A stretch of 64,000 bases of DNA. It comes from Serendipita indica DSM 11827. Lineage: Eukaryota > Basidiomycota > Agaricomycetes > Sebacinales > Serendipitaceae. Of this stretch, positions 17,810 through 45,847 are shown piece by piece. Position 1 is the first letter of the stretch; every line of letters starts with the position of its first letter. The notes under the pieces were generated by a model. That model ran no database searches, was not told the DNA's origin, and was given only the letters and a program-made list of their open reading frames with translations. Position numbers and translations under genes: made by a program. Where the stretch lies: assembly GCA_910890315.1 (NCBI GenBank), contig CAJVGD010000013.1, positions 558,001 to 622,000 of the forward strand. Reading direction: 5' to 3'.

Positions 17810-18327
17810 ATGTCCGACGTTCTCAACGACTTTGGCTTCACTAACACGCAGATTACAATAATCGGTGCGTTCCCTTTGCTTTTGTTGTTCGGACGGCTGC
17901 TAATAGACGTCTTACGCATGTAGCCCTCGCATTCACCACAAGTAAGTTTCATGGCATCATACGGGGACATGTTGGAGTCCCGGGATGCTTTTTTCGTCTG
18001 CGCTGTGCTGATCATCTGGCTTTAGGTGCCTATCCTGCTCCAACTACGCCGTCCAGAGGCGTCGACCACGAATATCACAATGCTCGCTATGCTGATGCGG
18101 TTTTCGCAAACTGTGGTCTCCCCGCTGCCGACTTGGAGCGCAGACGCGGAATTTTGCGTGCCTTACTCGCTTCTCCATCCTGGCTCCTGCAACTGGCTCC
18201 TGTCACGGTCGAGCAAGTTCAGGACTTTGTGCTCCGCACTCGTCGAGGACGTCGGATGTGCTGTTTTTGTCGGGCAGAGGGCTCTCGTGCCGCCATTCTC
18301 GAGTGTGCCCGGCAGCACGTGGCCTAA
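17810..18327 (+). CDS. B1: small C2CH-signature protein, three exons
   Basis: Not a family I can name. Exons 17,810-17,864, 17,924-17,941 and 18,026-18,327 give 124 residues; both introns are phase 1 with GTGCGT/TAG and GTAAGT/TAG ends, and the middle exon is exactly 18 nt. The start MSDVLNDFGFTN is supported because all three B genes have a 55-nt first exon. The large exon begins AYPAPTTPSRG and carries SPSWLLQLAPVT, DFVLRTRRGRRMCCFC and ILECARQHVA. The putative zinc ligands are Cys-x2-Cys-x11-Cys-x3-His, two residues from the end. The C-terminal half is very Arg rich. No signal peptide or membrane segment. Paired with A1 about 1.7 kb downstream on the same strand. Confidence 0.8.
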
Positions 18328-18436
18328 ACGAGCACCATGTTTGCCGCAGAACAGTGGAAAAACTGAAAATTATATCTCCTTTTCACCGTTCCCATGTTCA
18401 GCGTGCCGGCCTGCGGACCAGCCCCAGCCTCAAACT

Positions 18437-18508
18437 TCAAGGCAAGTTCAGTTTCCCTCCAGCGTCGAAATATCAAGGCAAGTTCAGTCTCCCCAGCGTC
18501 CTCGTCTG
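18437..18508. repeat. Two-copy 36-bp direct repeat
   Basis: tcaaggcaagttcagt occurs at 18,437 and 18,473, each followed by a ccctcc/cccc-agcgtc segment, so about 36 bp are tandemly doubled. It lies in the 3' flank of B1, and no similar doubling was noticed after B2 or B3. Confidence 0.7.
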
Positions 18509-19874
18509 TTCTCTAGCAGAAGAGGCGTGCTTCAGCAACCACAAACCCGCCACCGCCGTGGTTTATGGGGCTATGTGCAGAGCGCAAGGGACGGCGAGAC
18601 CCCAGCGGAGTAGTAGTCACCTCGCGACCATTCTATCTTCACTTTTCCTTGTCCTAAAACACTCTACGCCCTCGCTCCTGCATCAAATGCCTCCCTCTTA
18701 CCCCCTGAGGCTTCGCTCCATCATTGGTTTTCACCTTCAGGCGGGCCCGCCTTGTCAACTACCCCAGACCGGAATTCTCGTCCTTCGATCACAAGGGGTT
18801 CTCTTGCACAGTGTGTTTCAGCTCGGGTGGAGGACGTACTTGGAGACACGATTTCCGGCTTTTCATTTAAATAAACTGGCTCCATTGTAATATTGATTTA
18901 TCCCCAAATTTACTCTATGCGAACATCGGGAATGTTTCAGACCAAAAGAGAGCGATAACCAGTGGTGTGGGCCAGTTGGCCTCTACGCCTTCAACTACCC
19001 ACAAGAGCAGGACCCGTCGGCCTATTCCCAAACAAAAGAGCGCATTTCAAATCAAAGTTTCGACGGCTCGTGTGGTCAACTGCGCCAGTCGTCCGGCGTT
19101 TGCTTAGGCATTGTTTGCGCGGGCTGCCGGCTATCAAATTGTTTGCACTTTGCCATGCAGAAACATGATAAGTCATGGAATCTGTCCCAAATGAGACAGC
19201 ACTGCTGCCGAAATCTATCAGCGGATCGGTTCTATGGTCTCAGCATGTTCGGCGGTTGGATGAGTGTGAGTTAGGCGACCCCATTAACCCCATTGGAGCA
19301 ATTCGGTGCATGGTTCGATAACTGAAAGGCACTTGAAGCAAAGCAACGTGCTGGACGTCCGCGTTGGCTTCCGTAAATGACGACGCAGCGCCTTGGCATC
19401 CAGGGAGCCTCTGACACTCGGTTATTGCAAAAAAAAGCTCTCATTACCTTCCTCACATTCTTATTTTTCTCACGTTGACGTTCAGTAGTAGCCATGGCTC
19501 AGGGATGATACCGGATTTGCACAACCTAACTTCCTCGTCTCTGTATCACCACGCACTAAATAAAGTTTGGATTCTATTCGTCTCGAAACCTTCCGAGTAT
19601 CGCGCACCTTCAAATGTCCGCCGAACACAGACGTCTTCTAGGAACACTTTCCACCCCATGTTTTCATCAAACATCTCTATCTCCTTACTCAGTATGAGGT
19701 ACACCCCAATCTGGGTCTCATGACGATCCCTCGCGTACCAAACCTCCGCCAGGGCCAGGTTGATAACCGCGCAAAGGCGCATACCGAAATCTCAAACTTA
19801 ACGACGCTCAAATACCAATGAATCTCCTTATGTGCTCTGTATTTTCTGGTACAGGGCCCACTTTGGCCAGATGC

Positions 19875-19880
19875 CATAAA
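19875..19880 (+). promoter_or_regulatory. TATA-like box of A1
   Basis: cataaaac begins about 114 bp before the A1 start codon. A3, A4 and A5 have equivalent boxes 108-114 bp before their starts. Confidence 0.5.
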
Positions 19881-19988
19881 ACCCCTCACTCCTCGACGAC
19901 TGTGAACCCCCGCCTCCCAGCTGAAGCAAGACAGACTCGCACAAGCCATTACTTAGTTTCTCCTTATCCTTGACCTCTCATCTTGGCC

Positions 19989-20534
19989 ATGTCATCCGTA
20001 CAGGGCACAACGCCTCTGTTACTCGGTGAGCCCATCTCGGTCGCTCGAAGTCGACTATGACTCACGTATGTATCATTGGCTAGGTCTCGTTATCCCGCTA
20101 GGTATGTCGCAATATCCACCGCCCCCGAGGCATTGTCGCCGTCTCCACATCTGGCCATGTTTATCTTGTTTCATGTCAAAACTATCGCGGGGTTTGCCGA
20201 TTTCTGACGTTATATAACTTTTCCTTTCTAAGGCCAGCCCTTGCAGCCAAACCATCCGCGACCAGTTCGCTCTCCCACCGGAAACCCAGATGAGCAGTTC
20301 ATCTCCATTTGTTTCCGACATATTGCTAGAGAGCGCGGAGAAGGACTAAGAACGAATCTGCGTGCGATACTGGACGCGCTTTGGTGGCGGAATAATCGAT
20401 TCGAACTCGCTCCACTCTGCATTCTGGATGTCTTCGCCTTCACCGGCTCAGTCTTCACATGTGCATTCTGCACCAGCACCGCTAATAATGTTGAAGCAGT
20501 TATCGGATGTATTCGCAGCCATATAGACGTCTGA
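19989..20534 (+). CDS. A1: small C2CH-signature protein, three exons
   Basis: Exons 19,989-20,025, 20,084-20,101 (18 nt) and 20,233-20,534 encode 118 residues: MSSVQGTTPLLLG, then the micro-exon peptide LVIPLG, then a long exon. The core reads NPDEQFISICFRHIARE, LRAILDALWWRNNRFELAP, ILDVFAFTG and ends CAFCTSTANNVEAVIGCIRS plus HIDV. The ligand pattern is Cys-x2-Cys-x12-Cys-x3-His. The introns are phase 1, as in the B genes. Hydrophobic positions in the 'FI..CF.H.....LR..L...LWWR' helix are kept in A3, A4 and A5, while many surface positions change. Function unknown; a zinc-stabilised interaction module is an inference. Confidence 0.82.
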
Positions 20535-22606
20535 ACCTCGGTCAGATCTTGGTGAGGATTCAAGTCGGCCTGCGCGACCTCCGATACTCGGTACCTTGGC
20601 TCAATATAACCACTAATGTCTCACATATTCTCGTATTCGACGTTTGTACCCCCTCGAATAACTCTAATATACGTAGATTGTCTAGTTCTCCATCGTTTAT
20701 CTGTGAATAATTGCCGTTGGGCGCAAGCGGAGTGGGGCCCCAAAGGCTTGGTCCTCTCTACGCTTATCCCTCGTGGTTCATTTCGGAGACACGTGGCTAA
20801 TGTGTCGGTGTCTGTATTCGCCGCTGTCCCCGCCGCCAAAGGCCGGCGAGCATGCTCAAAGGGATTTGTAAAGACTACGACCAGACATACACTCGGTTAT
20901 CTGGATTGCCCAGAAGGAGCATAATATTCATTGCCTTCTTCTCCTACCGAGGATTCAACTTGACAAATCTCGCTTAGAAATCCTTACGGCCATTTCATAT
21001 GGAGCGCAAAAGATCTTTGAAAGAGCAGTAGCCGCTATTTTATCGAATATCAGAGGTCAAACAAGCTGGAAGGCGCCTATTTCCGTGAGAAGCTCAGGGG
21101 GATCAGCGACCCTTGGCAACCCTTGGGTTTAGGCGAGAGATAGGCTTTGGTACACGGGTCACACGCAACTTGATCCCAGACCACATCCCTCTCTCAGCTC
21201 TGTCCCCCAACACGTCGACAGCGCTCGGCCTGGCACTCGAGCGAAGAGGTTGACTTTCTACTACTCAAAAGTCAGAACAGGAGCCTGTCTGTCATCCGAG
21301 CTCTCAACCATTCTCAAGAGCTTGAAAGCACTCATCCTCGCCCAGCGACACTCCACAACTGCGCGTCGCTTACAAAATGGCAACGTGGGCCGAAGCCTCT
21401 GCTTCCGGATGCTGATGGACCATGTCCTCAGCCCTACGTCCTTCCAACTTGACAAGGTAGCAGAAAATCTTGGGGGAAAAAGGATCTTACCTATCTTTCG
21501 GGACGCCTGGCCTGTGCAAGCACGCTTCAAGGAGTAAGGCCTTCCGCGAGGCAAAGTGCGTGTTTATTGATGGATTCAGAGCCAACGGCTGGAGAACCTC
21601 ACTTAAAAATTTGGATGAAAATTCGGGATAATGCACACGGCTCTCCAATTGGAGCAGCGCCGCCGCCGCAATCTTAATTCGGTGGTAGGCCGATGACTCC
21701 TGACCATCTCATGTGATGGCGTAATGGATAGCAGAGGCAAGATAAAGGGACAAGATCAGACTCGCCACTCTGGCCCACCGTAATCCTCCCTCTCTCTCCA
21801 GCAGGAGTATCGCGCCTCTAATACTCTCGTACGTCGGCTTCATGACAGCATCTTGCACATATTCACGTTGTTAGATGCCAATAGTACCCATGATGAGCAT
21901 TCGCCACCCGGGCGCAGCTGCCACCGTTATGGTCCTGCGGTCTGCACTGCGCTAAGAGCTGCATCTCGACCTCTTTTATTCCCCCTTTTTTCACCTAGAA
22001 ATACTCTGCTTTTCTGGTAGGGGTCTCCAGAGGCGGGGGGACTGAAGTCATGCGGATCGATTATCTTCTGCCCCCGGGATAACGCTGTACAATGGCCTCC
22101 AAACGCCACTGATATCAAGTATCGCAAGGTGGTTCTCCTCCTACCTCAATACAGCTCCAACGGGGTAATCAACATCACCACTTTCCCGCCCGGCTGCAGA
22201 TACGAACCAGGTTTGGTTCCCGAAGTTGACGGGAGCACTTGAAACCCAATCTCGCTCCTCATCGCTACGTGGTTGCCGCGCATTAGCCTGTCTTGTCACG
22301 GCCGTGACGGCCACTTCTTGATGAGAGGGCGTCTGGTCAGTCGATCGTTGATGGTACCTGGCCCAATTCCAAGGGAAATATTTTCGAATTCTTTCGTATT
22401 ACGACAAAATAACTCGAAAAATAATACGCCTTACTGGTCAAGAACCACACGTGTGTGTGGAGAGACGGACGACACGCTGCTCATGGGGTCTCAATCAGCG
22501 TGAAGATGCGGGTATTGTTTGGGGACAAGTGTGGTTATAATCCCTCGCTCTCACCTAGACAACTTGATCTCCACCACTCCTACAAATTTCGCCACAGCCC
22601 CTTCAG
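20535..22606. other. A1-B2 intergenic region, including left end of unit 2
   Basis: No gene recognised in 2.1 kb. From about 21,100 it matches the upstream flanks of B1 and B3: GAGGTTGAC at 21,246, aacaggagcctgtctg near 21,277 also near 25,454, gatcgattatc at 22,055. Several 60-100 codon frames are open but none is conserved with the other units. Confidence 0.45.
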
Positions 22607-25290
22607 ATGGACAAACCTTCCGCAAACTCGGGCTTTGACGAGCATCAGCTTTGGATGACTGGTTTGTAACTTTATTGTCGCGGTTTTGAGCAGACTTTGA
22701 TGCATTTCTTGCGGTCTAGTTGTCGCGTCTGTGCCAAGTAAGCCGTTGAGACAACGTCCCGCGACGCAGCCTGCTAATAATCGACCCCAGGCGCAGAACC
22801 TGTACCAAATTCACCCTCCAGAGGACCTAATCACCAACTCCACAACGCAAGGTTCTCCCAGCACGCCTTTGCGGACTGCGGTCTGGAAGAAAGCGACTTG
22901 AATCGTCGTCGCTACAGCCTCCGCACTCTCCTCGGGTCTCAATCTTGGCTAGCGGGTATCCCTGTGACGACTGCGCAAGTTGAGGACTTTGTGCGTGTCT
23001 TTCGTCGCGGTCCAGCGACGTGCTGCTTTTGCCTCGAGTCCGGCAGCCGTCAAAAGGTTCTCCGGTGTGCCGTTACACACCTCTCCTAGGAGAGGCCCTC
23101 ATCCTCTACCAAACGCCATGCCGCATCCCTTGCGGCCTGACTCAGCACCGAACCCCCAAGGTAAATCCCATCTCTTCCACATCATCGACTTGGATCTAGC
23201 AATGGATTACCTCTTCGACAAGTCAAGGTCCATTGCGCTCGTTGTTACCTCTCATGGGCTCATGAGCTACGACGGATGGCGACACGGTCGCGAACGCGAG
23301 TTCCCCTCGCGGTCAACCCATCATCACGGCGAATGCATCCCGCGCAGCAGGTGTCTGGTCTCCTGTGCCACATGAGGGTTATCATTTTCGTCGAGCGCCT
23401 ACCCGCACCGGCGAAAAGTTTTCCGGATCCCCACTTCCCCATTCACTCCCGCCATGCACCATCAGCACCGATAAACTCGGTCGTTGAGCGCAGTCTCGTT
23501 CGTCGCAAGACGCGTTTCAGATCATGGTATCTCGGTCGTACCCGAAGATTTTTGAGTATTTTTTTTTCCATTCGGGGCTGTATATAGTCTTGGCTACACA
23601 TAATCTGTTATGTAATCATCAAAGTGATCTTATTTCGCCATCTCTTGCAGGGCTGCTGATCGGCGGCTTTGCCGCCACGTCGGGTATGGCCAGCCCTGCG
23701 TTGCCGAACTAGAGAAGACCGAGAAGTTCGGTCTGTTTTCACAAGAGCCGTGCTTGAACAATAGGTTTCAAATTATCTGGAACACAGGGATCCATTATTC
23801 GGATTTGCTTCATCCAGATTTTGCTGCATCCGGCTTTATGGACAGTCATAATCATAGTTCTCCCTTCCCATTTGACTTCGTGTGGTTGATTCCGTTTCAA
23901 ATTCAGAAATTCTCGATGATTGGAGTCGGTCAGTGAGGGTGGCGGAGTGAATTTGGCCTCAACTTTTCTAATCATCCACAGGGGCAGATCCAATCTTCCA
24001 ACTCGTGAGCAGAAACATACTCTCAGGATGACGATCTCTACGGTCCGCATGTCGAATTGCGCCAGGCACCAGGCTAGTTGCTTCTGTACTATTTACAGTA
24101 GTCGTCGGCTACCAGCGAATGCAATTACATGCCGAAACACGGTTATCTCCATAATAATTAACCTGAATATTTCCTTCGAGGTAACGGTGCACCCTGAATT
24201 AGTCGTCAGATCGCAGGGTCCTTGTTCTCAAAGTGTCTTCTACCGTCGGGTTCGGTGTAACGAGATATTATGGATTAGTCAAACTCCACAGGGTGAGAAC
24301 TAAGGATACATGTGCGGATTTGGGAATATTCCTGGCATGTGCCCCATGGGAGCGTGAAGGAGGCTCCTGGCGGGCCGCATTCGGATATTCTGGAGCGCAA
24401 GATGATTACGGAAAGGCGACGAGCTGAAAGAAGTGACACAATTTGAAGTAATGTGGCGTTTCGAGCATCCCCCGTTGGGCTTTATGGCCGACGAGTAACT
24501 TGTAGCCCTCAGGTAACCCTTAGCACGCGCTTGACATGATAAAACCTCTCAACTGTGTCCTCGACTCTTATCCCTGTTTCACATTGGCGCTCAACACCCG
24601 CGACGCAGGTACCGGTGGAGACCATTAATCTCGTTTCCCACTCGATGAGCGTATACATAGTCAGTGCAGGAGGCTCACTTGGATTCCTCCTCTCTCAAAA
24701 GCGATACGGGATCTGCCTCTTCCCACAGTGGCAATGGTACCCACTCAAAGAAGACAGTTTTGATTCAGTCTTTACCTAAACCTTGCGAATCATCGTACAA
24801 GTTCGAATATCAGCTAGGATGTACGCTTAGGACAGGATAAACTCGTAACAATCGCGTTCTCCCCGACACTTCATGACTGACCTATCTCTTGCTACGTGCT
24901 ACGTCCTCTTGAGACGAGGCACCGGAACAATCACTGGTATGCTCGAACACTCGTACTCCCTCTGCCCCAGCATATGTTTTCATCTTCAGCGATCCACAGT
25001 ATATACCCCTTGCCTGCCGTCACGGAGCCGGCGTCGCCAAGATGGTGGGCTATCTTCGCGGTATGTAATCATCCGAGTATTATTTACATCTTGGTACGAA
25101 TCTATCCTGTCTCGCTTTGACATTCAGTTGTGAGTGACACGTAGCCAATACTCAAATCCTATGATCACATTGCTACCTTACAAACTCTCGAGTTCATAGT
25201 CGACTCATTCAACAACCACTTGTCTATGCACACTATCAGGTTCTGGCACAGTCCTGCTCTTTGACTTCCATGCGGGCCGGCGGAGCGGCG
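21100..25290. repeat. Segmental duplication, unit 2 (contains B2, lacks a recognisable A gene)
   Basis: Second of three collinear units, with matching landmarks upstream and downstream of B2. The downstream block gcgtttcagat...ggctgtatatagtcttgg near 23,512-23,590 recurs near 27,608-27,690. At the expected A position (about 24,790-24,910) only a weak candidate start and micro-exon-like 18-mer were seen. Confidence 0.55.
22607..23089 (+). CDS. B2: small C2CH-signature protein, three exons
   Basis: Exons 22,607-22,661 (55 nt), 22,720-22,737 (18 nt) and 22,791-23,089 encode 123 residues. The start MDKPSANSGFDEHQ lies in a 55-nt exon as in B1 and B3. The micro-exon contributes VASVPS, the long exon AEPVPNSPSRGPNHQLHN. 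Core: RRRYSLRTLLGSQSWLAG, VTTAQVEDFVRVFRRG and CCFCLESGSRQKVLRCAVTH plus LS. The putative ligands Cys-x2-Cys-x11-Cys-x3-His are intact, and the reading frame is whole. Compared with B3 the long exon is clearly homologous, while exon 1 and the micro-exon have drifted almost completely, suggesting that exon lengths are constrained more than sequence there. Confidence 0.82.
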
Positions 25291-26731
25291 CACGTAGGTT
25301 GCACCGGATTTACTCAGAAGCTCATGTAATACGAATGCTCAGATAATAAATTTGTACACGCGCACCTTGATCCCTGACCACGTCGCCTTTTCATTGGTGC
25401 CCGACGTTTGTTGCCAGCATCTGAGGTTGACCTTTACCATTTCAAACGTCAAAACAAGAGCCTGTCTGATGTTCAAAGCTCTCGACCTCTTCAACCACTC
25501 CGAAACGAATCCTAATAATACCTGTGTTTGCCTGGAGAGGTTTCACAACTGCGCGGTTGGCAACAAAGGACGGGTGGGCTCTGGTTGTTAATGGTCCATA
25601 TACTCAGCCCTAGCACACTTTTTGACGCCTAGTGATGCCCTTAACTGATTTTCCCTACATCTGAAGGCGCCCAGTAAAGGCCAAGGCGGAGAAGTTGAGA
25701 GTAGGGAATATTGCAGGAAAAGGGCAGGTAATTTCATGTTTTCAGAGCAAACGTACGAAGGAGCTCACATGATATTTCAGCTGAGTAACTCAGTGTGGAT
25801 ACGTATCGGCCGTTGGGCTCGAACGGCGACCCGTCCTCAATCGGGCGAGGCATTACGCCCGGGCCACCAATGTGGGTGTTCTAATTGAGACTTGTGAAGA
25901 TAAAGGGCACAATGCCGCACTTGCCACCCATCAGGCGCAAAGTCTTCCACCTCCCTACCTGCAAGGAGGGCTTATACCTGGTAAGTGATCCCCTTTATGT
26001 GATCCTCTTGATGATATATGTGATATATACAACTTTGGATACGAACGGTGGCCCCAGCAAGCAATGCCACTCGCTACGCCACCCTGTTCCAAGCAACGCA
26101 CGGTCTACTCTGCATCGTATCTAGCCTTCCATCTCTTTTATTCGGTACTTATTCTCTAGGAGAGGGATTCAGGAAGGGAGAGATCAACGACCTGGATCGA
26201 TTATCCTCGCCTCGGGCAGAGCAACTCTAGACAAGACTCTTCGAACAATGCTGTATCAAATTATTCAAGGTATTCGGTTCTTGGCGTAATCAAGCACGGG
26301 GACACCCTAACCCATCCCAGCCTCATGGCGAACAAAAGCGAGGTCCAGACCTGAGAACGGGTGCAAGTTCTTCAAAGATTGCTCTTATTTCTTGCCGAGT
26401 CGCCTGTCTTATGGACTGCATTGTCTGGTCTCGGATGCGACGGCCTCGTTGGTTATAAAACTTCAGCTGGTTTACCAATCTGATGGTACCTGGGCGATTC
26501 GCTAGGGGAATAGTATCGAATTCTCGCGTACCTGCAGCAAGTTGCTTCGAAATCATATTCGCATTGGTGATTCTGTGGCGAGGTCGGCCATCCTGTGCAT
26601 AATAGGGGCTTATACACTTGCTCGTGGGTCTCCTGAGCTCAAATGTGGGATCCCGTTTAGACACTGGGTACTTCAAGTGTGTGTTACCTCCTGACAAACT
26701 TGCCCCCTACGCCGACCACAGTTTCATCGAA
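23090..26731. other. B2-B3 intergenic region with no intact A gene
   Basis: 3.6 kb, the longest gene-free stretch of the first array. 24,836-25,140 is where an A gene would be expected. It has gataaac near 24,836, an ATG at 24,873, an 18-nt segment from 24,918 bounded by AG and GTATGC, and a following AG at about 24,988. The downstream frame lacks the CxFC...CxxxH ending, so no gene is called. From 25,290 on it is the flank of B3. Confidence 0.4.
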
Positions 26732-27209
26732 ATGTCCGATTTCGTTGCCAATTCTGGCTTTCTCAACGCTCACATCATGCCGGCTAGTGTGTATATTTGT
26801 CCTCAAGTGTAGAATATTCGCTAACGAGTATCTAGGCGTCGCATTCGATACGAGTGAGCCTCTGGGACCTCTGTTTGCGCTGCGCTCTGCTGATCATGTA
26901 ACTCCAGGTGCTTATCCAGCTCCAAATGCACCTTCCAGAGGACCTAATCATCAATATCATAACGCGCGATTCATCCAAAACGCGTTTTCGGGTCTTAATC
27001 TTCCTGAAGGCGACCTGAACCGTCGTCGCTTCTGCCTAAGCTCTATCCTCAACTCTCCGTCTTGGCTGCTACAGATTTCTCCTGTGACGACCACGCAAGC
27101 CCAGGACTTTGTAATTCGGGCTGGTCGCCGGCGAGCCATCTGTTGCTTTTGCCGTCGACGTGGCTTTCGCATGTTCATTATCCGATGCGCACGTAGGCAT
27201 CTCGCCTAA
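26732..27209 (+). CDS. B3: small C2CH-signature protein, three exons
   Basis: Exons 26,732-26,786 (55 nt), 26,836-26,853 (18 nt) and 26,908-27,209 encode 124 residues, the same architecture as B1 down to exon lengths. Starts MSDFVANSGFLNAHIM. The micro-exon encodes VAFDTS. The long exon begins AYPAPNAPSRGPNHQYHN and carries RRRFCLSSILNSPSWLLQ, PVTTTQAQDFVIRAGRRR and CCFCRRRGFRMFIIRCARRH plus LA. Cys-x2-Cys-x11-Cys-x3-His is conserved. The net charge is strongly positive. B1 and B3 are closest to each other in exon 1. Confidence 0.83.
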
Positions 27210-28349
27210 GTGAGGGTACCCCGGTTCTCGTGGCGTGACTCTTGCACCAGCTATCAAGGCATCCCCCCAAATCCACCGGGTATCTTCACGTCGCGCCCGA
27301 CAGGCAGGGTTCCTTTCTGGCTATCTGCATCCTACTGCGTTCGTTACAATTGCTCGTGCACCTACACCTAGGAGAGATGGCGGGGACGCATCCCAGTGCG
27401 GCGTCACTTCACGAGCAGCTCATTGACAAGCTCCCTTGTCCTGCGCGTTCGAGTCTAGCTGCTTTTTTGCTGCATAAAGGCTGCTCTTTCGCACTCTGCC
27501 GGGCGGTTCCGAGCAACGCAACCGGGATTCCCTTTCTGGGTCCTGTGGCTCTCTGGTGTCGTCTACTATCAACAGCACCGAAATATCGGTCTCCCTACAC
27601 GACGGTACGCGTTTCAGATAATGGTAATCGGGAGGACATTGGGATCCTTTCAGTTTCGGTTTTCCTGTTCGGCGTTGTATACAGTCTTGGTTACTTATAC
27701 CGATTCCGGTTTATGATATAAGGACTTTGAGCTATTCGAAGTTTAGAGTTCAGCCTTCTGGTGGTGACGGGCGTTTGGTCCTGTGTTGGTTGGCCCCGAC
27801 ACCATCGACGGTCCACGCCGCAAAACGATGATCAAACTCGTGTATGGCAAAAGCGCGCTCTCGGAATATCCGTTTCGACGTCTGGCATATCCAATTGCGC
27901 CATGCGTCGAGTTGTTGCTGCCGCAGTATTCTCGCTGGCGCTCGGGTATCAACTCTTTTGCAATATCCCATCATGAAACATTGTCAGTTCCCCCAAAATC
28001 ATGGCTTCGTATTCCCTGCAGGACGGCCCTCCCGTGTTGATCGATCGTCGGGCCGCGGGGCACTCTCAGGGGGTTTCTGTGCGGCCTTCCCCACTATAAA
28101 CGTGTCTAATTGATTACTCTAATTCCACAATGACGGAGAAGCCCGAAATCGGGACTAGATCCTCCGCTCTCTGGCTTCGCCATGGAAGTCGCGCATTTGA
28201 TGTTCTCGCCGGTCATCAGTTGCATTGGTTCCTGACATGAACAGATAACCATACAAGGCTTATATCTGTAGAAGCAAAGCGGCGTCCTGAATTGCCTTCC
28301 TGGTCCTCAGTCAAGTAAGGACCTTTTACCATATAGAAAGCCCGTACCA

Positions 28350-28381
28350 CGTGGATGACATGATAAATGATCTCATCCACG
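28350..28381. repeat. 9-bp inverted repeat with 14-nt spacer
   Basis: CGTGGATGA at 28,350-28,358 and its exact complement TCATCCACG at 28,373-28,381. The intervening catgataaatgatc also has internal complementarity. The left arm overlaps the palindrome CCACGTGG, an E-box-like core. Confidence 0.6.
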
Positions 28382-28929
28382 AGTTTGGGCTCTCTGTTCG
28401 TTTCAGGTTAGCGCTCGGTGACCACCCGGGACGGTATATCGTTGTGCTCAAAGGGCGTGACGCCCCGTATCTTCACGGGAATGTGGAAGCTCAAAACCAC
28501 AGCTGTACGCACAATCCTGCTATCCCAACGTCTATGGCTCATACGTAGCGCGGCAGGACACGTATGAACGTGGTGCCTCCGGTCAGATGAGATGGGCCCC
28601 GACTCGCACTTAGGGGACTCCCCGACCAACTCATTATATTACTCTCCACAATTTCCGAGTATCACGGGTGTTCCATATGCGTTATTCGCCAGCATTGCTA
28701 GGACCAGGCCACCCGACAAGTCTTCCCACCCGACTTTCTCTGGGACCTTGACCGATTCTGGCAGGTCGGGAACACACCCATGAGGATCTAGTGGCGATCT
28801 TTCCATAAAATTTCCCTCGGGCCCGGCCAGGGCGGTTGTCCTCCGCGGCAGCGAAGGCTCGAAAGATGTTTTCTGACGATTGATTAAACTCCGTATCTTC
28901 TCTTCGGCGCCTGGTTCTCTTTGACCGAC

Positions 28930-28937
28930 CATAAAAG
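28930..28937 (+). promoter_or_regulatory. TATA-like box of A3
   Basis: cataaaag, about 108 bp upstream of the A3 start, the same distance as in A1, A4 and A5. Confidence 0.5.
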
Positions 28938-29038
28938 CCTCTCAAGCGTTGACAACTGTGACCCCCAGTTTTCGTCCCAATCGCAGCAAGACAAACTCAC
29001 ACCAGCTATTAACAGTTTATTCGCCTCTCGCCTCAGTC

Positions 29039-29603
29039 ATGACATCCGTACAAGGTCCCACTCCTATCTCATTTGGTGAGCCCATCTCAGAGTCCCGGGA
29101 GTTGACCAGGGCTTACCTGTGGATTATTGCGCTAGGCCTCGTTGTCCCGCTGGGTAAGTCCCAATCTCCTCCGCCGCCGAGACATCTCCCTCGGCTCCGC
29201 CGAGCGGTCTATCTGGCCGCGTTTATCGTCATAGAGCTGTCCCGGGGTTAGCCGTTCTGACGGCACGTACCTTTTCCCGTCTTCAGGTCCGCCCTTGGGG
29301 CAAAATCACCCTTTGCCAATTCGCACTCTCATTGGACATCCTAATGGACCGTTTATCTCTGGATGTTTTCAACATCTCCCTCAAGCCGAGGCGGAAAGAC
29401 TTAGGACGAGCCTCCGTGGTATCCTAGACGAGTTGTGGTGGCGGATCAATCAGTTTGGATTCGCTCCGCCCAGTGTTCTGGATGTTTTCGTCTTCACCGG
29501 CCCCGTCTTCACTGGCCTCGTTTACACCTGCGCATTCTGCGCTGGTACTGCTGGTAATTCTGACGCAGTTATTGGGTGTATTCGCGCTCATATAAACGTT
29601 TGA
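29039..29603 (+). CDS. A3: small C2CH-signature protein, three exons
   Basis: Exons 29,039-29,075, 29,136-29,153 (18 nt) and 29,287-29,603 encode 123 residues. MTSVQGPTPISFG and the micro-exon peptide LVVPLG are nearly those of A1. The core reads NGPFISGCFQHLPQAEAERL, RGILDELWWRINQFGFAP, VLDVFVFTGPVF and ends CAFCAGTAGNSDAVIGCIRA plus HINV. Compared with A1 a five-residue insertion (TGLVY) sits just before the zinc motif. This looks like a slippage duplication of the FTGPVF segment and would lengthen the linker between helix and knuckle. Frame intact, introns phase 1. Confidence 0.83.
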
Positions 29604-31902
29604 GTACCGGTTGAGTCTCGGTGAGGGTGTATTCTTCCAGCATCAACCAGAGCTAATCTCTTGTAGCGACGTACGAGTGCGCCCGGAGTCTCTCTCCCAG
29701 GAGGTTCATTCATCACACTTTGTAGCATACTGTTTCCGCAACGCAACGCTCGAGTACCCCAATCCCGGATATCGCAGCCATCTAATACCTCGTCGCCTTC
29801 AACGTTCGTAGCCCATCGAATAATATAACCATTACTAGTATCAGGTTCACCACCGTCTAATCCTGTAAACGACGTGCCGTCGCGGCGTGAGCAGAACGGA
29901 AGCCATGCACGAGATCTGGTCTGTGACTGCAGAGCAACAAGGTCACAAATGGCTTTCGCGTCACTCATCTCCGCCGTCGTGTCCGTCTCTTTACCACCGG
30001 AGACATGTTCAAAGTAAGAGGTTCGTTCGGCTGCACCCGGTAGGGCAAGGGACATAGTCGTGCTTCGAGGGAGCCACGTCGGGTGCAGTCCGTCCCAAGC
30101 AAGGGTAAAGAACTGATGAATACCTTTTGAACTGGGACGGCTGGTCAATCGATATAATAAATCCCACCGCCGACGTCGTCAATGAGGGGAGACCAGCGTC
30201 GACGATGGGGTATCACTCGTGTTCAGACGCCTTCCGGCGGAGTTTGTCCGTTTGTTGACTGCCGTCGCTGCGCCGCCGCCGCCCTTCATGGCCCGCCGAA
30301 CCGTGTCCGACATTTTGCGCGTAACGTATATTGCTCGAATTTAATTGTATCGCATGAAAGCGAGACGCAAAGAACGCGTTCTGTCCCTCTTGGCGTTCTA
30401 GATCATGGACCACGTCGTATGGCTTCATGCCCGCAGCGAAGTCCTCTAGACGCTGTATTTGTTACCTAGAATACCCGAGGCGTCGGGATTGTATCAATCT
30501 ACTAGCCTTTTGATTCGACTGCGTTTCACGTTGGAGGACGTGCACAAATTCGGTTCGTCTCTTCGCCCGTCAGCTCTTGTCACACGATGATGTATGACGA
30601 GACCAAAACCAGCTTTCCCCTGCAGGAATTTGGATCAGCGCGTTTCATATCTCAGCAACGTCGTGGTGGTGATAACTGACTTGGCTCAAGTGACCACCAG
30701 CACATAACCTGTCATGGTTACACATAGAATCCCTCACACGGAAATTCATCGAAAATTTCTCTCGCGTGGCCATTTCGCGCTCAAACTGGCCGACTGCCGT
30801 CTCGTACGTCCCGATGTGTCTGCCCCCTATTCAATTCACCTGATATGGTAATATCATGAGAATTCTGGTTCTAATAACCCCAAGTACACAGTTGGATATC
30901 CCATCCGACTCCAGACTTTGACGGGCGAATCAACCATCGTGTTGTCACGGCCTTCTTGGGGTAGGTCTGCAACTTTTTGCGAACTAGGCGTCTAGCAGAC
31001 CGCATATGCATTCACAGGAGCGCAACGGCCCAGCTCGCTGGATAGGCACGGTGTTGGAGTCTGTCTTTCGGACAACGCAAGTGTCGCCACAACTTCTGAC
31101 TTAATTAAAACATGTCATCTCGACGTCTCCTTCCTCGAAGGCAAAAACTGATGATCAGGCCACGTTCCACCAAGCTGCTTCTTCATGGCGACCTCTGACG
31201 CGTACATAGAATCATCAGACGTCTTGGTCACGCCTTCTAATTGGCATTCTCTGTTTGATTCCAGCCCTCGGAATCTCGACCCTTCGCGGCTGTCTAATTT
31301 CCACGAGACAACTCGATACCAACCCATCCTGAGGGGAAATGCGACAATATGGGTGCGAATACACCACCCAGTCTTCTTCCTCCAGCTGCAGGTTGTGAAC
31401 AATCTACCCAAGCACGGGCTCCTGGCCCGACGTGGGACGGTACGCACAACCTCGAGGATCCGGATGCTCGCTAGTGCCGATTTTCGGAGAGAGTTTGAAC
31501 TCTATTCGTCGTTGAACCTTCGCAAAGCAACTCGGGCGCTCCACAGCGGACAGGGCCGCGATCAATACATTCTTCAAACACGTATTCCCGATCGACGCTC
31601 TCAGTTCTCCTTACTTGGGAACATTCTCCACCCTACCACTTCCAACGATGATATCCAGGGGGCGTCCACGGTTCATTTCCGTCAGGACGCGTGCTTTGAC
31701 ATCAAACCGGTTTCAAGATATCTTTTTCGATGGAATTATTTTTCGTGTCTTTCCTCGAAGTCACCGTCCCTGCCCACACCTGGGACGTTATAAACGGGAA
31801 CATCCTGACAACCCCCAGATCCAACGATTCCTCCTCTCCATCGAACCCGAGCAACTCGCGGTCGCTGTCTCGCCATCGTTCTCTTAGGCTTGCCGCTCCT
31901 CT
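29604..31902. other. A3-A4 intergenic region
   Basis: 2.3 kb. Open frames of 186 codons (29,588-30,148, minus) and 202 codons (31,185-31,793, plus) exist but match nothing recognisable and are not repeated at other copies. aggagcgcaacggcccagctcgctgg near 31,016 resembles a segment near 33,600, so flanks were duplicated with A4/A5. A4's TATA box is at the right end. Confidence 0.4.
31789..31795 (+). promoter_or_regulatory. TATA box of A4
   Basis: tataaac, 114 bp before the A4 start codon. Confidence 0.5.
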
Positions 31903-32440
31903 ATGTCGTCCGTCCAAGGTGCTTTTCACCTACTTGAGGAGCCCTTCGGTGCGTTTGGTGTTGGGACCTAATCGTGTACTTACGCGCTAGCAGGCCTCAT
32001 CACACCTCTTGGTGAGTTCAGTTTAACCTTTTACCGCTACGGTCCCCCGGACACGTCACGTCTATGTTCAGTTGAAATCATGGGTGCCGCGGTAAAAACG
32101 TTGTGTGCAACGCCACTGATACTTTCTCTGTCACTCAGGGTTGCCGCTGCCTGTCAACCACGCCCTGCCTGTCCGCTCGCTCACCGGAGACCCGGATGGC
32201 GCATTCATCTCTCAATGCTTTCGACACTTGCGCCGCGACCTGGCGGAACCAATGAAGACGGCACTGTTTGCAACGCTCGATGTGTGGTGGTGGCGGGTCA
32301 ATAGGTTTGACCTTGCACCTGCTGGCGCACTGGATGTCTTCATCTTTGTCGGCCCAGTGTACGAGTGCAAGTTTTGCGCGGGTACTACTACCGACCCCGA
32401 CATGGCCATTTTGTGTGTTCGAGGACATATTAATGTCTGA
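31903..32440 (+). CDS. A4: small C2CH-signature protein, three exons
   Basis: Exons 31,903-31,948, 31,994-32,011 (18 nt) and 32,139-32,440 encode 121 residues. MSSVQGAFHLLEEPF, micro-exon LITPLG, then LPLPVNHALPVRSLTGDPDG. Core: AFISQCFRHLRRDLAEPMKT, LFATLDVWWWRVNRFDLAP, ALDVFIFVGPVYECKFC and ends MAILCVRGHINV. Ligands are Cys-x2-Cys-x12-Cys-x3-His. Exon 1 is three codons longer than in A1/A3. The tryptophan pair has become a triplet (WWW), as in A5. Introns phase 1 and canonical. Confidence 0.83.
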
Positions 32441-34446: not shown

Positions 34447-34977
34447 ATGTCGTCTTTGCAAGATCCAATGTTTCTCTTATCCGGTGAACCCTTTGGTAAG
34501 TCTCTCATTTTGTTGGTGTCTCTTCACATACTTACTTGCCGATAGGACTCATCACTCCCGCTGGTACGTTTCCGTTTACTCTTACCGTCACCGCGCCAGA
34601 ACCCACCAGTTGTCTTCATTTCAAATGTCTTCGCAGAATCAAACCCTCTAACGCCACACATCTTTCCAGGGCCGGCATTGAGCGTCAATCACACCTCGCC
34701 TATTCGGACACTTACTGAGGTCCCTGACAACGGTTTCATCACCAATTGCTTCCAGCATCTCCACCGGCAGGAAGCAGAGTTGATGAGGACTACACTCTAT
34801 GCGATCCTGGACGCATGGTGGTGGCGCATAAACGAATATTCGCTTGCGCCTGTAGGGGCACTGGACGTCTTCGTCTCTGCAGCCATTGGCCCAATGTACA
34901 CCTGCAAGTTTTGCACTGGTGGGTTCGATGACCCCGACAACGCAATATCCTGTGTTCGTGGGCATATTAATGTCTAA
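34447..34977 (+). CDS. A5: small C2CH-signature protein, three exons
   Basis: Exons 34,447-34,495, 34,546-34,563 (18 nt) and 34,670-34,977 encode 124 residues. MSSLQDPMFLLSGEPF, micro-exon LITPAG, then PALSVNHTSPIRTLTE. Core: NGFITNCFQHLHRQEAELMR, YAILDAWWWRINEYSLAP, ALDVFVSAAIGPMYTCKFC and ends NAISCVRGHINV. Closest relative is A4. It is the last copy in the array with the three-exon structure; all later copies are uninterrupted. Ligands Cys-x2-Cys-x12-Cys-x3-His intact. Confidence 0.84.
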
Positions 34978-36559: not shown

Positions 36560-37099
36560 ATGGACGAAACTCACGATTTTGCGATAGCGAATGCACAAAA
36601 TATCATAGATAGAGGCGAAGCCAATGCACCAGTACCTCCAACATACCCACGGCGACCCCATCATGGCGGCATCAACGATGTTTGGATCCGTGCGCAGTTC
36701 AGAGGCCATGACGACGCCGACCGGCTGCGCGGAATACTCGAATCCACCCTCCGCTCGCAATGGTGGGATCTGCATCTTCCTACGCCAGGCAATGACCTCG
36801 ATGCATTCGTCAACGACGGCAAATGCCTATTCTGTGACACATACTGGATATGGTCAAGACTGGCTTTCCCCTTTTGTGTCCACAAGCATCTCGATTATCA
36901 CCCTCCTATGCTCTCATCCCGTACCCGTGGCATTTTGGTTCTCTCCTCAGCCATTCTTGTCGTGGTACGCTGCACGCTGCTCGCGCTCGCATATGTTCGT
37001 TACTCATCCTTTACAAGGGCATATTTGCACGCACGTACAGGCGTCGTTGACGGGTCTTCCATCATTCACCGTGATGGCATCTTCGACGAGCTGTTCTAG
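36560..37099 (+). CDS. A6: intronless C2CH-signature protein with a hydrophobic C-terminal extension
   Basis: One exon, 179 residues. Start MDETHDFAIANAQ. Core: GGINDVWIRAQFRGHDDADR, LRGILESTLRSQWWDLH, DLDAFVNDGKCLFCDT and FPFCVHKHLDYH, giving Cys-x2-Cys-x13-Cys-x3-His. Sister genes stop within a few residues of the histidine. Here the frame continues for about 66 residues and includes a strongly hydrophobic stretch at roughly residues 124-146 flanked by Arg, which would be a membrane anchor if translated. This may be a lost stop codon or a genuine new domain. Homology to A1-A5 rests on the aligned 'W..xQF.....A.RLR..L...WW...CxFC...C...H' frame. Confidence 0.75.
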   Translation: MDETHDFAIANAQNIIDRGEANAPVPPTYPRRPHHGGINDVWIRAQFRGHDDADRLRGILESTLRSQWWDLHLPTPGNDLDAFVNDGKCLFCDTYWIWSRLAFPFCVHKHLDYHPPMLSSRTRGILVLSSAILVVVRCTLLALAYVRYSSFTRAYLHARTGVVDGSSIIHRDGIFDELF

Positions 37100-39190: not shown

Positions 39191-39559
39191 ATGTACCAAG
39201 AAGATGACCAGTTCTCCACGAGCTCAAAGCATGTCCAAGCCTTCCGTGACGCGCATCCCTATCGACCGCAGGCGGGCCTACACCCCCAACACAACGCAGG
39301 CGGGATGCCAGACATGGACTGGATCATTGCACAGTTCCATGATCTACCTGGAGATGAGGCTAATCGCCTTCGTACCCATCTAAGAGTCGTCCTGACGAGC
39401 GACTGGTGGAATAATCCAGCCGCGAACCCGATAAATGACGGCATCATCTCCGACCTCCTGCGGTTCTTCATCAATGGACGCTGCACCTTTTGCAACACCG
39501 AGAGGACTCAATCCACTGGTCTCTCCTGCATCAAAGACCACCTAGACTATCCAAACTAG
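39191..39559 (+). CDS. A7: intronless C2CH-signature protein
   Basis: One exon, 122 residues, start MYQEDDQFSTSSKHVQ. The frame is open upstream, but the TATA box position and the sister genes favour this Met. Core: GGMPDMDWIIAQFHDLPGDE, NRLRTHLRVVLTSDWWNN, LLRFFINGRCTFC and TGLSCIKDHLDYPN. Ligands Cys-x2-Cys-x11-Cys-x3-His. It shares with A6, A8 and A9 a 'W(I/V)xxQF' motif that replaces 'FI..CF.H' of A1-A5, so A6-A9 form a subgroup. Confidence 0.8.
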   Translation: MYQEDDQFSTSSKHVQAFRDAHPYRPQAGLHPQHNAGGMPDMDWIIAQFHDLPGDEANRLRTHLRVVLTSDWWNNPAANPINDGIISDLLRFFINGRCTFCNTERTQSTGLSCIKDHLDYPN

Positions 39560-41671: not shown

Positions 41672-42043
41672 ATGGCCCATCATGGCGACAGCTACGACTT
41701 CCAGATATCGACTAATGCTCAACTCCTCCGAGGTTTCCGTGTTGCGGTATCTGCCCCTCCGCCACCAGTCACGGTGCACCCTCAACGTATCGCGACTGGC
41801 TTTGCGGACATGGAATGGGTGAACACACAGTTTTGGCACTTACCAGAGGAAGATGGTGCTCGCTTCCGCCTACTCCTTACAGCCATCTTGATCACGCACT
41901 GGTGGAATCAAAGGATGAACCATCCAGATGCATCGACTCTGCTCCATCAGTTTATCCTCGGCCATCGTTGCGCTTTCTGCAACGCCCCAGTGACCACGCT
42001 ACAAGCCGGGATAATTTGTGTTCGCAACCATATAAACTACTAG
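41672..42043 (+). CDS. A8: intronless C2CH-signature protein
   Basis: One exon, 123 residues, start MAHHGDSYDFQISTNAQL. Core: TGFADMEWVNTQFWHLPEED, ARFRLLLTAILITHWWNQR, LLHQFILGHRCAFC and AGIICVRNHINY. Ligands Cys-x2-Cys-x12-Cys-x3-His. Closest to A7 by layout, but the N-terminal 40 residues are unrelated in detail, so that part seems free to change. Confidence 0.82.
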   Translation: MAHHGDSYDFQISTNAQLLRGFRVAVSAPPPPVTVHPQRIATGFADMEWVNTQFWHLPEEDGARFRLLLTAILITHWWNQRMNHPDASTLLHQFILGHRCAFCNAPVTTLQAGIICVRNHINY

Positions 42044-43423
42044 CTTTGGCTACACAAGTGCGTTCTTAACGTCGATCAAGTACGTAGTACATGGCCCGCG
42101 ATTGCTCTTGTTGACACTAGTTAGCGATGTCGTGTCTCATCCTCCTCAGGAATGGACCTCTCCCTCCTCAATACCGTTACATTTATATACCATAGCATCC
42201 GTGTAGCATATCTCCGCTGTATCGTAATCCGGCTGCGCCTCAGCGAGCTTGATGTCACTGAATTATGTATCTTCTTCTCTACAAGTAATCCGAGCCTGCA
42301 GATCCCAAGAAGCCAATCTTGACTAGGTTCGGGTTTCTTAAGGTTTCTTGCTCCTAGCCCGCATGGAGTGAGACCTCCTCGCTGGGATGAGCGTCAGGGC
42401 GTGTTAGAGGGCAGGCAGGCTTTGCACGGAATGGGGTGTGGTGGACTTATCGTACGATATAACTGGTTCCGAGAACGGAGCACAGGCTTGCTCCAAATGG
42501 TGAAAGCGACATATTTTATGTTCTGCAGTTTAACTTCGTCCGGGGCCACTGCGCTGGCTCGCGTTCAGAATAACTGGATTTCTATAATTCTGAATATGTT
42601 TTGCAAATTCCCAGACGATCGCTGCTTCAGCAATTGCCAGCTGAGCGGTCGGCCTGACAATATCCGGTGACCATCTCTTTTTTTGCTGGTTTATTTTTTC
42701 CAGTTTCCAGTTTCTTTACACCTCTTAGAATTTCTAGCCTACACCTGTCTAGGGTCGTCGATGTGGCGGGAGCTCATCTTTGGACCTCACTCCTTTGTTG
42801 GTTGGCGTAATTGGTCCGTGCAAAGCGAGCCCATGGGCAGCCAGAAACATACCTCTCGACGAGAACCCGCAATGGTTCAGACGACTCAGCCTGGTTTCGC
42901 CGGAAAATCAGACGCGTCAAATTTCAACAAGGTAGGCGGATGAGTAGGTCCAAGTGGAGGCGGGAAGCTCCTTCTTACAACGGAATTGACGACTTTGCGG
43001 TGGTCCTTTAGCCGGAATTCGATGCCTGACCGACGCAGATAGTAGACCCGCGGCGCACCTTCCTGTAAAGATTATATCTGTAAATGCTTGGAAAAAGCTG
43101 GCTAAATCTCTTAAACTACCAGGATTAATCTAGTTTGCAGGGCGACCAGATACGCGCAAGACTTATGATTCTGGGGCTTTTTCTTCGACCACGCGGCGTC
43201 ATCTCCGAGCGGATGATGAACGCATCTTTTGTGGGTTCGGACTTGCTCTGCTCCCAGCATTGCAGGTTGTTGGTCGACCTGCGCATGAAGGAAGATGCAA
43301 AAGTCGATGGTTTACTTTCAAGAGTTGGTCGGAGACTGCAGAAATGCGCAGTAGCAGGGGGTATAAAGCTCCAATCCTGGAGAATCATCACTCGTCTCTC
43401 CAGCTATCCCCTCAGATCGAAAA
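42044..43423. other. A8-A9 intergenic region
   Basis: 1.4 kb without a recognised gene. The A9 TATA box lies at 43,362. Confidence 0.4.
43362..43368 (+). promoter_or_regulatory. TATA box of A9
   Basis: tataaag only 62 bp before the A9 start, so the 5' leader would be very short. Confidence 0.5.
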
Positions 43424-43747
43424 ATGGACGCCTTCCCGCAATACGCTTTCTCCCTTATGACACAGGCCGCTCCTCTATCTGTATCAGCAGGACCTGTTCG
43501 GCCAAATGTCGGCGGTGTCAATAATGCCTGGATTGCAGCCCAGTTTTGGGGTCACCCAGACGCTGAACGGCTCCGGAGCATCCTTCGATCATTTCTCGAC
43601 ACTGATTCTTGGCAAGAAAATACGCCGGCCCGTGACAAATGCCTCGACATGTTTGTCAAGAACAGGACATGCCAGTTTTGTCTCGGGCAGAATGGCACGC
43701 CAGCGGCACAGTGTGTCCGGCAACACTTGTGCTATAATCCTAGATAG
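43424..43747 (+). CDS. A9: intronless C2CH-signature protein, shortest copy
   Basis: One exon, 107 residues, start MDAFPQYAFSLMTQA. Core: GGVNNAWIAAQFWGHPDAER, LRSILRSFLDTDSWQENTP, CLDMFVKNRTCQFC and AAQCVRQHLCYNPR. Ligands Cys-x2-Cys-x10-Cys-x3-His. The WW pair is reduced to SW, as in the B proteins. The phrase GGxNxxWIxAQFxGHxDAxRLR is almost the same as in A6, so A6 and A9 are close relatives although not neighbours. Confidence 0.8.
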   Translation: MDAFPQYAFSLMTQAAPLSVSAGPVRPNVGGVNNAWIAAQFWGHPDAERLRSILRSFLDTDSWQENTPARDKCLDMFVKNRTCQFCLGQNGTPAAQCVRQHLCYNPR

Positions 43748-45424
43748 AACATGAGCGCAGTTTCAGTACGTTCCTTTATCGTCACACGTCCATTGGCTTA
43801 CAATCTCCCTTCCGATCCCAGATCATGCCTTATCGTTATCACTCAAACTTATGAGGTTTAAATGGACTTATATGTGCACGTTTATGCACTCTCATATTCT
43901 ACCGGACCTCAGTCCCAGGTAATCGCTTCTCGTCGTCTTCCACTGCTGCATCCTATCACTATTCACCCTCCGTCTTCCACTCTCATCACTTTTCCTGTTC
44001 TCTATAGTACTATCGTCTCTTCTATTTAATCGCATATGAGCATCGTCCAATTTGTATCACCGACCTTGAGAGGCGCACCAAGAGAGTGGCTCGGATGGCT
44101 GCCGGAGCCGTGTCTGTATGAGGCTGCAAACTGCCCGTGGGTGTATGCAAGGCGCATGGCGCGTTCTAGCTTGAAGGAGAATGCACCAGCCGACGTCCAG
44201 GAGCGTCACTCTCTCTGAAGGATGGTAGAGATTCGCGTCGGATGCCATCTCGGCAGCTGTCTGGCAAGGAACGCTCAAGCTTTATAAAAGGCGTGTATCC
44301 GACAATCGCTCACTCGCCATGCATCTCCTCTTCGCCACGAGCTGAGAGCCTACTACTCACTTGGGGTCAAAGTACCATGCCACGTATTCCAAGAAAGATT
44401 ACTACTAGGTTTCTCAAAGACGCAAGGACCAGAGGGGTTGAATGGCCGGCATGCTTGACTCTCATAGAAACACAACCCTGGCCCAAAGTGAGGCCTCCAC
44501 GGCTGTCAGTCATCCCAAACGGGGGTTATGAAACCGCGGATTAACTCTTCTTAACTAGCAGAGAATGTCGTGCGTGTTATTCTGACCCGGCGCCCAAGCG
44601 CCTTCTCTGTGTAGAGTCTGCCCGGTACCACCTGTCCTCCGTGAGCTCACAGACGCATTTACTCAACGGCCATCAGCACTTTGAGACATCTAATTATCGG
44701 CCGCGATTGCCTGGCTCCAGTCAGTATGCGCAGAAGCCGCTCCAAGGGTCATTTGCGTCGTATGCAATCTGCCTCCTCCCCCTTTTTACCTCGTACATCA
44801 TTTTTGCAAGAATACCTGCCAAAATGGATGCCATCCTTCTCTGAATTCAAAAAATCACGTTCCATGTGCGACTCGACTCCTTGCCAACAGTCTTGCGTCC
44901 AAAGAGCCGTACATCGGCGCCGAATCGACTGAAAACCGGGCAATAACCAGTCCCCAATTCGTAATATGACATCATAGATTGGTCAACAATACGCATGGTA
45001 GTAGCAACCGTGATTATTTAGAAAGCGCTTGATCGGCATGCGGAGGCTGACTGACACTCTCTTCAGTTTCATCCTCTGTAAATCAAGGTCTCAGCTTTGA
45101 TAACAGAGTGTCCTGCAGTGAACCAAACGGGGTCCCTGCCAAAATGGCCGGCAGTCGCTGAACCCTCCCAGGCTCGCTTTCGCGGGTCGCCTTCTTCGCT
45201 GTGCAGCACATGGCGGCTCATTCATGCTCATCATGATTGATACTCATGTCATACATCTGACATACCACTCGAGTTACAGCTATTCCATCAACTCGCAACG
45301 AATAGATGAGGCCGTTCGCCCGAGCTCGTCCGCTTTGTCGAAATCACATATAATGCCCTTCACAATCTTTCCAACTCTCATCACTCTCACCTAAAACTAG
45401 GTTTTCCCCCTTCCTCCCTTTAGG
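43748..45424. other. A9-A10 intergenic region
   Basis: 1.7 kb without a recognised gene. tataatg near 45,349 could serve A10. Confidence 0.4.
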
Positions 45425-45847
45425 ATGGCTGAACATCATCACGAGAATACTCCTTTCCCAGACATCTCCACCGATCCGTCAATGTTGCCTCCAACGGCTA
45501 ATTTCCTGCACGCCGCTCCAGACAACGCTGACGTGGGTCAATTCCTTCGACCTCATGTTGGCCATGAAAACAATATGAGAGCCAACGCTGAATTGGTCTC
45601 GCGGGTAGCCAGGCGTCACTCGCCAGACCGCGCTCAAGCTTTGGGGACTGTTATCATGGCAATCCTACGAAGTCCATGGTGGAACGCTAACACACACTTT
45701 CCAACAAATATATCCCATCCTCACGCAAGCTCGCCAGTGGATCCTTTTGATGAGTTGGTCGAGGGACCAAAACGTAAAACATGCACCCTTTGCGGATCCA
45801 GTAATGGGAAAGCATGTGTCAAATATCACCTTGCTTACGGTCATTGA
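45425..45847 (+). CDS. A10: most divergent intronless C2CH-signature protein
   Basis: One exon, 140 residues, start MAEHHHENTPFPDISTDPS. It has a long N-terminal part, then AQALGTVIMAILRSPWWNAN, DPFDELVEGPKRKTCTLCG and KACVKYHLAYGH. The finger spacing is compressed to Cys-x2-Cys-x7-Cys-x3-His, the shortest in the array, and the aromatic of CxFC is Leu. It is placed in the family by the 'L...L.S.WW.....F......CxxC...C.x.H' order and by position at the end of the array. Confidence 0.72.
   Translation: MAEHHHENTPFPDISTDPSMLPPTANFLHAAPDNADVGQFLRPHVGHENNMRANAELVSRVARRHSPDRAQALGTVIMAILRSPWWNANTHFPTNISHPHASSPVDPFDELVEGPKRKTCTLCGSSNGKACVKYHLAYGH

Follow-up and report, generated by a model that had tools for sequence, protein, structure and literature searches.

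The question raised by this locus is what a run of closely spaced small genes encodes. A window of 64,000 nucleotides (nt) from the basidiomycete Serendipita indica DSM 11827 (assembly GCA_910890315.1, contig CAJVGD010000013.1, positions 558,001 to 622,000; "window" refers to this whole stretch, in which all positions below are given) contains a tandem array between positions 17810 and 45847. Its members, which we name B1 to B3, A1 and A3 to A10, all have near their C-terminus three cysteines and a histidine (CCCH), the putative ligands of a zinc finger. An original prediction had held that these are twelve related plus-strand copies, each with the four ligands and an open frame, and our analyses confirm this: as judged by sequence comparison, the twelve copies form one homologous tandem family. 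We favor, with some reservation, the view that the array encodes small, intracellular, zinc-stabilized binding or adaptor proteins, predicted to contact protein or nucleic acid. Computation showed that the copies are homologous, established their number, open frames and aligned gene structures, and yielded purifying selection of modest strength and a confident predicted fold; zinc binding, expression, splicing and function we infer.

A six-frame scan of the whole window detected 13 stretches of the form C-x2-C-x(5-16)-C-x3-H. Twelve of these correspond to the array copies, all on the plus strand from position 18259 to 45829; the remaining one, at position 11023 on the minus strand, is unrelated to the array. 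All 12 copies have the form C-x2-C-x(7-13)-C-x3-H and keep the four ligands in an open frame. Counting only terminal motifs, i.e., those with a spacer of 6-14 residues and at most 7 residues before the stop, the plus strand contained 11 and the minus strand none, and 100 dinucleotide-preserving shuffles (one strand each) averaged 0.13 and never exceeded 1. The 11 plus-strand terminal motifs are far above the chance level.

A profile of the 12 copies, in which A6 was shortened to 118 of its 179 residues (as it was for the alignments, the tree and the comparison of substitution rates), recovered all of the copies on which it had been trained with E-values of 6e-38 to 1e-25, the next match having an E-value of 0.23. 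Profiles built from 11 copies recovered the 12th in all 12 cases, with E-values that refer to six-frame segments of this window and range from 3e-7 (A10, the weakest) to 4e-30. The A6-A10 profile matched A1, A3, A4 and A5 (7e-16 to 1e-11) as well as B1-B3 (5e-10 to 7e-7). Since this profile finds the other seven copies and the leave-one-out profiles find 12 of 12, the evidence for homology extends beyond the motif. A profile of A1, A3, A4 and A5 matched A8, A7 and A9 at 1e-12 to 2e-7, A10 at 0.007 and A6 at 0.03; its matches to the B copies were weak (B1, 0.12; B3, 0.48) and B2 was missed. The B profile matched A7, A3, A9 and A6 at 8e-5 to 1e-3 and A5, A8 and A1 at 0.02-0.04, and missed A4 and A10. 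Because these two profiles are weak across the branches, the link between B and A runs mainly via A6-A10 and the common gene structure.

The prediction had also described a WW or SW dipeptide ahead of the finger, a finger close to the stop, and lengths of 107-179 residues. The dipeptide was found in every copy (WW in 8/12, SW in 4/12). In 11 of the 12 copies the finger does lie close to the stop, 2-6 residues from it, and these 11 proteins are 107-140 residues long, with lengths taken from spliced models for seven copies. A6 is the exception, having 179 residues, of which 69 follow the finger. This A6 extension, located at positions 36890-37099 past the usual stop, holds a hydrophobic stretch with a Kyte-Doolittle value of 2.52 over 19 residues; a membrane anchor, a lost stop or an unseen intron are candidate explanations for it.

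Seven copies fit three-exon genes, in which an intron of 45-60 nt separates the first exon (37-55 nt) from a microexon of 18 nt, and a second intron, of 53-133 nt, precedes the last exon. According to the models derived from DNA alignments, the three exons, of which the second is in each case the microexon, are located at 17810-17864, 17924-17941 and 18026-18327 in B1 (124 residues); 19989-20025, 20084-20101 and 20233-20534 in A1 (118); 22607-22661, 22720-22737 and 22791-23089 in B2 (123); 26732-26786, 26836-26853 and 26908-27209 in B3 (124); 29039-29075, 29136-29153 and 29287-29603 in A3 (123); 31903-31948, 31994-32011 and 32139-32440 in A4 (121); and 34447-34495, 34546-34563 and 34670-34977 in A5 (124). 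Both junctions are in phase 1 in all seven models, and all 14 introns have GT-AG borders. We set the exon boundaries under rules of frame, phase and GT-AG, on DNA alignments of A1, A3, A4 and A5 and of B1-B3, and therefore the consistency of the introns is partly built in. The microexon encodes part of the N-terminal tail and, in several copies, part of its most hydrophobic stretch. Its peptide in the four A copies is LVIPLG, LVVPLG, LITPLG or LITPAG, with changes at third codon positions, and the identity between the microexons of B2 and B3 is just 9/18 nt. The predicted microexon is supported by frame, phase and GT-AG boundaries (7/7) and, for the four A copies, by the likeness of the encoded peptides. 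Exons more conserved than introns would have been expected to support the models, and this was not seen for A1/A3; a first measure of exon versus intron divergence was inflated by gaps. Between A1 and A4, intron divergence amounts to 0.56-0.57 of sites, close to the mean of 0.58 obtained with a shuffled intron. Since the microexon has 18 nt and is symmetric, skipping it would keep the frame. A paper on Xlr2 of Trichoderma virens describes an in-frame, very short exon that is alternatively spliced (PMC11121469). The likeness to the seven array genes lies in such an exon, which in the array is predicted; Xlr2 differs in being a Zn(II)2Cys6 regulator.

The remaining five copies are read straight through from an in-frame ATG, without introns: A6 at 36560-37099 (finger at 36824-36889), A7 at 39191-39559 (122 residues), A8 at 41672-42043 (123 residues), A9 at 43424-43747 (107 residues) and A10 at 45425-45847 (140 residues). 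Their N-termini vary in length; for instance, the PVR motif is preceded by 26 residues in A9, compared with 31 in A1. A TATAWA sequence is present 30-200 nt upstream of 5 of the 12 starts, where about one would be expected from a background of 8% of positions; this enrichment gives weak support for promoters.

In the alignment of the 12 copies, the only invariant columns are an L, a W and the four ligands, with P, P, R, F, L, F and F being nearly invariant. There is thus no invariant polar residue besides the ligands, and hence no hint of an enzyme. In the alignments used for AlphaFold2, for profiles against PDB sequences and for the family searches, the seven spliced genes were represented by their last exon. 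The AlphaFold2 model of the B3 last exon, based on 12 sequences (B3 and its 11 paralogues), has a predicted local distance difference test score (pLDDT) of 93.3 and a predicted template modeling score (pTM) of 0.82. It contains helices at residues 14-24, 33-47, 50-53, 61-67 and 87-98 and strands at 68-70, 75-78 and 84-86; of the ligands, C78 ends a strand, C81 lies just beyond it, and C93 and H97 are within the last helix. In the A8 model, block pLDDT values are 79-95 from residue 41 onwards and 48-56 before it. The predicted folds, which contain no zinc, gather the ligands at the beta-hairpin and the last helix. The N-terminal windows of 12 residues peak at a Kyte-Doolittle value of 1.92, and in our judgement of hydropathy the N-termini lack a clear signal peptide.

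Next to the fold, the pattern of substitutions bears on whether the copies are maintained. The third codon position was the most variable one in all 10 pairs with an identity above 35% (out of 66 pairs in total). In the five of these 10 pairs whose synonymous divergence (dS) was not saturated, the Nei-Gojobori method (NG86) gave a nonsynonymous divergence (dN) of 0.25-0.55 and a dS of 1.0-2.2. The family is thus under purifying selection of modest strength, and its proteins are fast-evolving. The prediction had placed this selection on the zinc module, with freely varying N-termini, and here our results differ. In the spliced proteins, with gapped codons left aside, the dN of the N-terminal part exceeded the higher value of the two other parts by at most 0.01 in 10/10 chosen pairs, so that its constraint is about that of the rest. 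For the N-terminal, helical and zinc parts, the dN values were 0.33, 0.32 and 0.25 for A4/A5 and 0.42, 0.39 and 0.50 for B2/B3. With dN at a similar level in all three parts, selection is not confined to the zinc end.

Several observations weigh against a maintained family of zinc-stabilized proteins. The zinc part of B1/B2, with a dN of 0.64 and a dS of 0.95, is hardly constrained. Between A1 and A3 (genes 19989-20534 and 29039-29603), the fraction of differing sites is 0.26-0.27 for the introns, 0.24 for the first codon position, 0.22 for the second and 0.42 for the third; the small gap between the introns and the first two positions indicates weak constraint. In 7/7 compared pairs of spliced genes, both introns are less divergent than third codon positions, in alignments of a kind in which gaps favor the introns. 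An exact TATAWA is missing at 7 of the 12 starts, the AlphaFold2 input consisted of paralogues only, and metal was not part of the models. Finally, the neutral simulation, which gave a probability of about 1e-10 that all 12 copies stay open and of about 6e-22 that they also keep their ligands, assumes independent copies and a simple mutation model. Could the array then be decaying, for example, as a domain of a mobile-element protein of which most copies no longer work? The fast divergence, the weak constraint on A1/A3 relative to their introns, a second block without an A copy (see below) and the passage of A6 through the usual stop would fit such a history. We nevertheless consider it very unlikely: 12/12 copies are open with all ligands, at the simulated probability just given; frame-keeping GT-AG introns could be placed in 7/7 genes, albeit with boundaries of our choosing; and 10 open reading frames (ORFs), nine in the array region and one in the right flank, had no Pfam match at an E-value of 0.05.

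We next consider whether the finger belongs to a known type. Searches with the family gave no match above cut-off in Pfam, with a first scan covering 10 of the 12 copies as open frames and a second one all 12, and none of note in NCBIfam and PHROGs. The best profile matches among PDB sequences, RFWD3 and the ribosomal protein eL43, had E-values of 0.23-0.24 and were rejected as being at chance level; the resemblance to eL43 may be due to this being a zinc-binding protein. Foldseek found nothing significant for the A8 model in PDB (best E-value 4.0) or for the B3 model (best E-values 1.7 in PDB and 0.83 in BFVD). The single IMG/VR match to the last exon of A5 lies antisense to an ORF of 523 residues and was discarded. 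Prokaryote genomes, searched with A8 only, yielded 19 pattern matches with no relative among them. In the titles and abstract openings of open-licence papers we found nothing on this family, which does not prove its absence from the literature. The family is not in the libraries searched (Pfam, NCBIfam, PHROGs and PDB sequences); neither rarity nor confinement to one lineage follows from this.

Classical C2H2 fingers have a beta-beta-alpha fold and the ligand pattern C-x2-4-C-x12-H-x3-5-H. In the metal-free models of the array proteins, predicted strands are followed by a final helix, with ligands at both. The array finger resembles the classical ones in that, in these models, C-x2-C lies at a hairpin and the last two ligands, x3 apart, lie on a helix; the x12 spacing is also shared by 5/12 copies. 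It differs in its third ligand, which is Cys in 12/12 copies and departs from the classical pattern, in a loop of 7-13 residues, and in being a single C-terminal finger behind a helical bundle. The statement that no named finger has this layout is weakened by the five copies with classical x12 spacing and a third-ligand Cys. Among curated C2H2 models, the best was a ZNF462 finger model, with 12.5 bits against a cut-off of 27. The BED zinc finger (PF02892) matched one of the 12 members, A7, below cut-off (11.9 bits versus 20.6, E-value 0.23), and Foldseek aligned the B3 model with ZBED3 in 9l4j without significance (E-value 5.2, root-mean-square deviation of 3.6 over 48 columns); the ligand set of the array, CCCH, sets it apart from BED. 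BIR domains, such as those of XIAP and BIRC2, are small folds of helices and zinc-bound strands with the ligands C-x2-C-x16-H-x6-C, unlike the array proteins in order and spacing, and their structures gave no significant fold match to the B3 model (Foldseek E-values of 6.2-9.5). The finger therefore looks like a CCCH variant near the classical C2H2 layout and outside the named families in the libraries searched.

This proximity raises the possibility that the proteins are sequence-specific DNA-binding regulators, in which the CCCH motif works as a classical-type DNA-reading finger, with the basic B copies as the likeliest candidates. The spacing is x12 or x11 in 9/12 copies, the zinc parts of the B copies have a net charge of +5 to +11, and the profile aligned in register with a HIC2 finger, at a non-significant i-Evalue of 8.9. 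Yet there is a single finger, whose spacer is down to 7 in A10, the zinc parts of the A copies have a net charge of just -2 to +3, and neither C2H2 nor BED models of Pfam were matched above cut-off. We regard this explanation as doubtful and rank it second, after the intracellular binding or adaptor protein.

In the latter, preferred reading, the protein would begin with a tail of 20-57 residues, followed by a compact bundle of helices against which the C-terminal finger, formed by a beta-hairpin and a helix, is packed, with zinc held by the CCCH ligands. The conserved core would carry a surface that varies between copies, and this module would bind protein or nucleic acid. A binding role is suggested by the lack of an invariant polar residue besides the ligands and of a clear signal peptide, combined with a conserved hydrophobic, probably zinc-bound core and a changing remainder. 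The A and B branches probably bind different partners, because the B copies are basic (net charge +2 to +11) and 7/9 A copies, which range from -6 to +2, are at 0 or below. Such small single domains, free of invariant polar residues other than ligands, could also be inhibitory microproteins, i.e., short kin of a larger host protein with a helix-finger domain, in whose complexes they would compete. The confident prediction that the B3 last exon folds alone agrees with this, but no larger protein with the domain was found in the window, nor by sequence in PDB, and we judge this origin quite unlikely.

Part of the array lies in three blocks at about 16.7-20.6, 21.2-24.6 and 25.4-29.6 kb (16669-29626), which show scattered mutual similarity that includes intergenic parts. 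Each block has a B gene, and blocks 1 and 3 also have an A gene. Similarity at the DNA level pairs A1 with A3, B2 with B3, A4 with A5, and the upstream stretches of B1 and B2. Translated comparisons between blocks gave scattered intergenic matches in several frames and on both strands, with E-values that are summed statistics and singly unreliable. The blocks probably arose by segmental duplication of B-A units. Profile and DNA searches between B2 and B3, in the middle block, found no A2 copy or clear relic; a single 18-nt match (E-value 0.22) was too weak to be accepted as one. The tree gives good support to B and to A1-A5 as groups and does not unite A6-A10 in one supported group; its longest end branch belongs to A10, which also has the shortest finger loop (x7). 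In the array's growth, B-A blocks probably duplicated first and A copies afterwards. A stretch is also conserved 3' of each B gene (18950-19170, 23930-24075 and 27795-27985); as these stretches are alike in several frames and on both strands, they probably reflect non-coding block duplication.

A bolder combination, which we think unlikely, is that of a zinc small-protein family with a fold outside PDB, multiplied as blocks of basic B and neutral or acidic A copies, and with the microexon as a possible isoform switch in seven genes. If expressed, the family would add to the many fungal small proteins that lack annotation a domain that is unnamed, probably zinc-stabilized and confidently predicted to adopt a small fold; its 12 paralogues in two gene architectures would be a compact natural series on small-protein diversification. 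The array also exemplifies how a reading based on ORFs alone overlooks microexon genes.

The window has about 50% G+C. Pfam matches of selected flanking ORFs were an importin-13 repeat, IBR and an oxysterol-binding protein on the left and a lactonase-type beta-propeller on the right. Two more duplicated pairs of small genes were observed. The pair at 57600-58000 and 61808-62341 has a "WTEQ...PFP" followed by an "FPQ.D" stretch and is apparently spliced; its second copy, read as one ORF, had no Pfam match. The pair at 50346-50952 and 55037-55665, in which the ORF 55240-55662 had no Pfam match, has an N-terminal C-x-C-G-x-C-x2-C and a basic C-terminal part. Its identity of 34-41%, in pieces, is spread over different frames, and therefore these genes are probably spliced.

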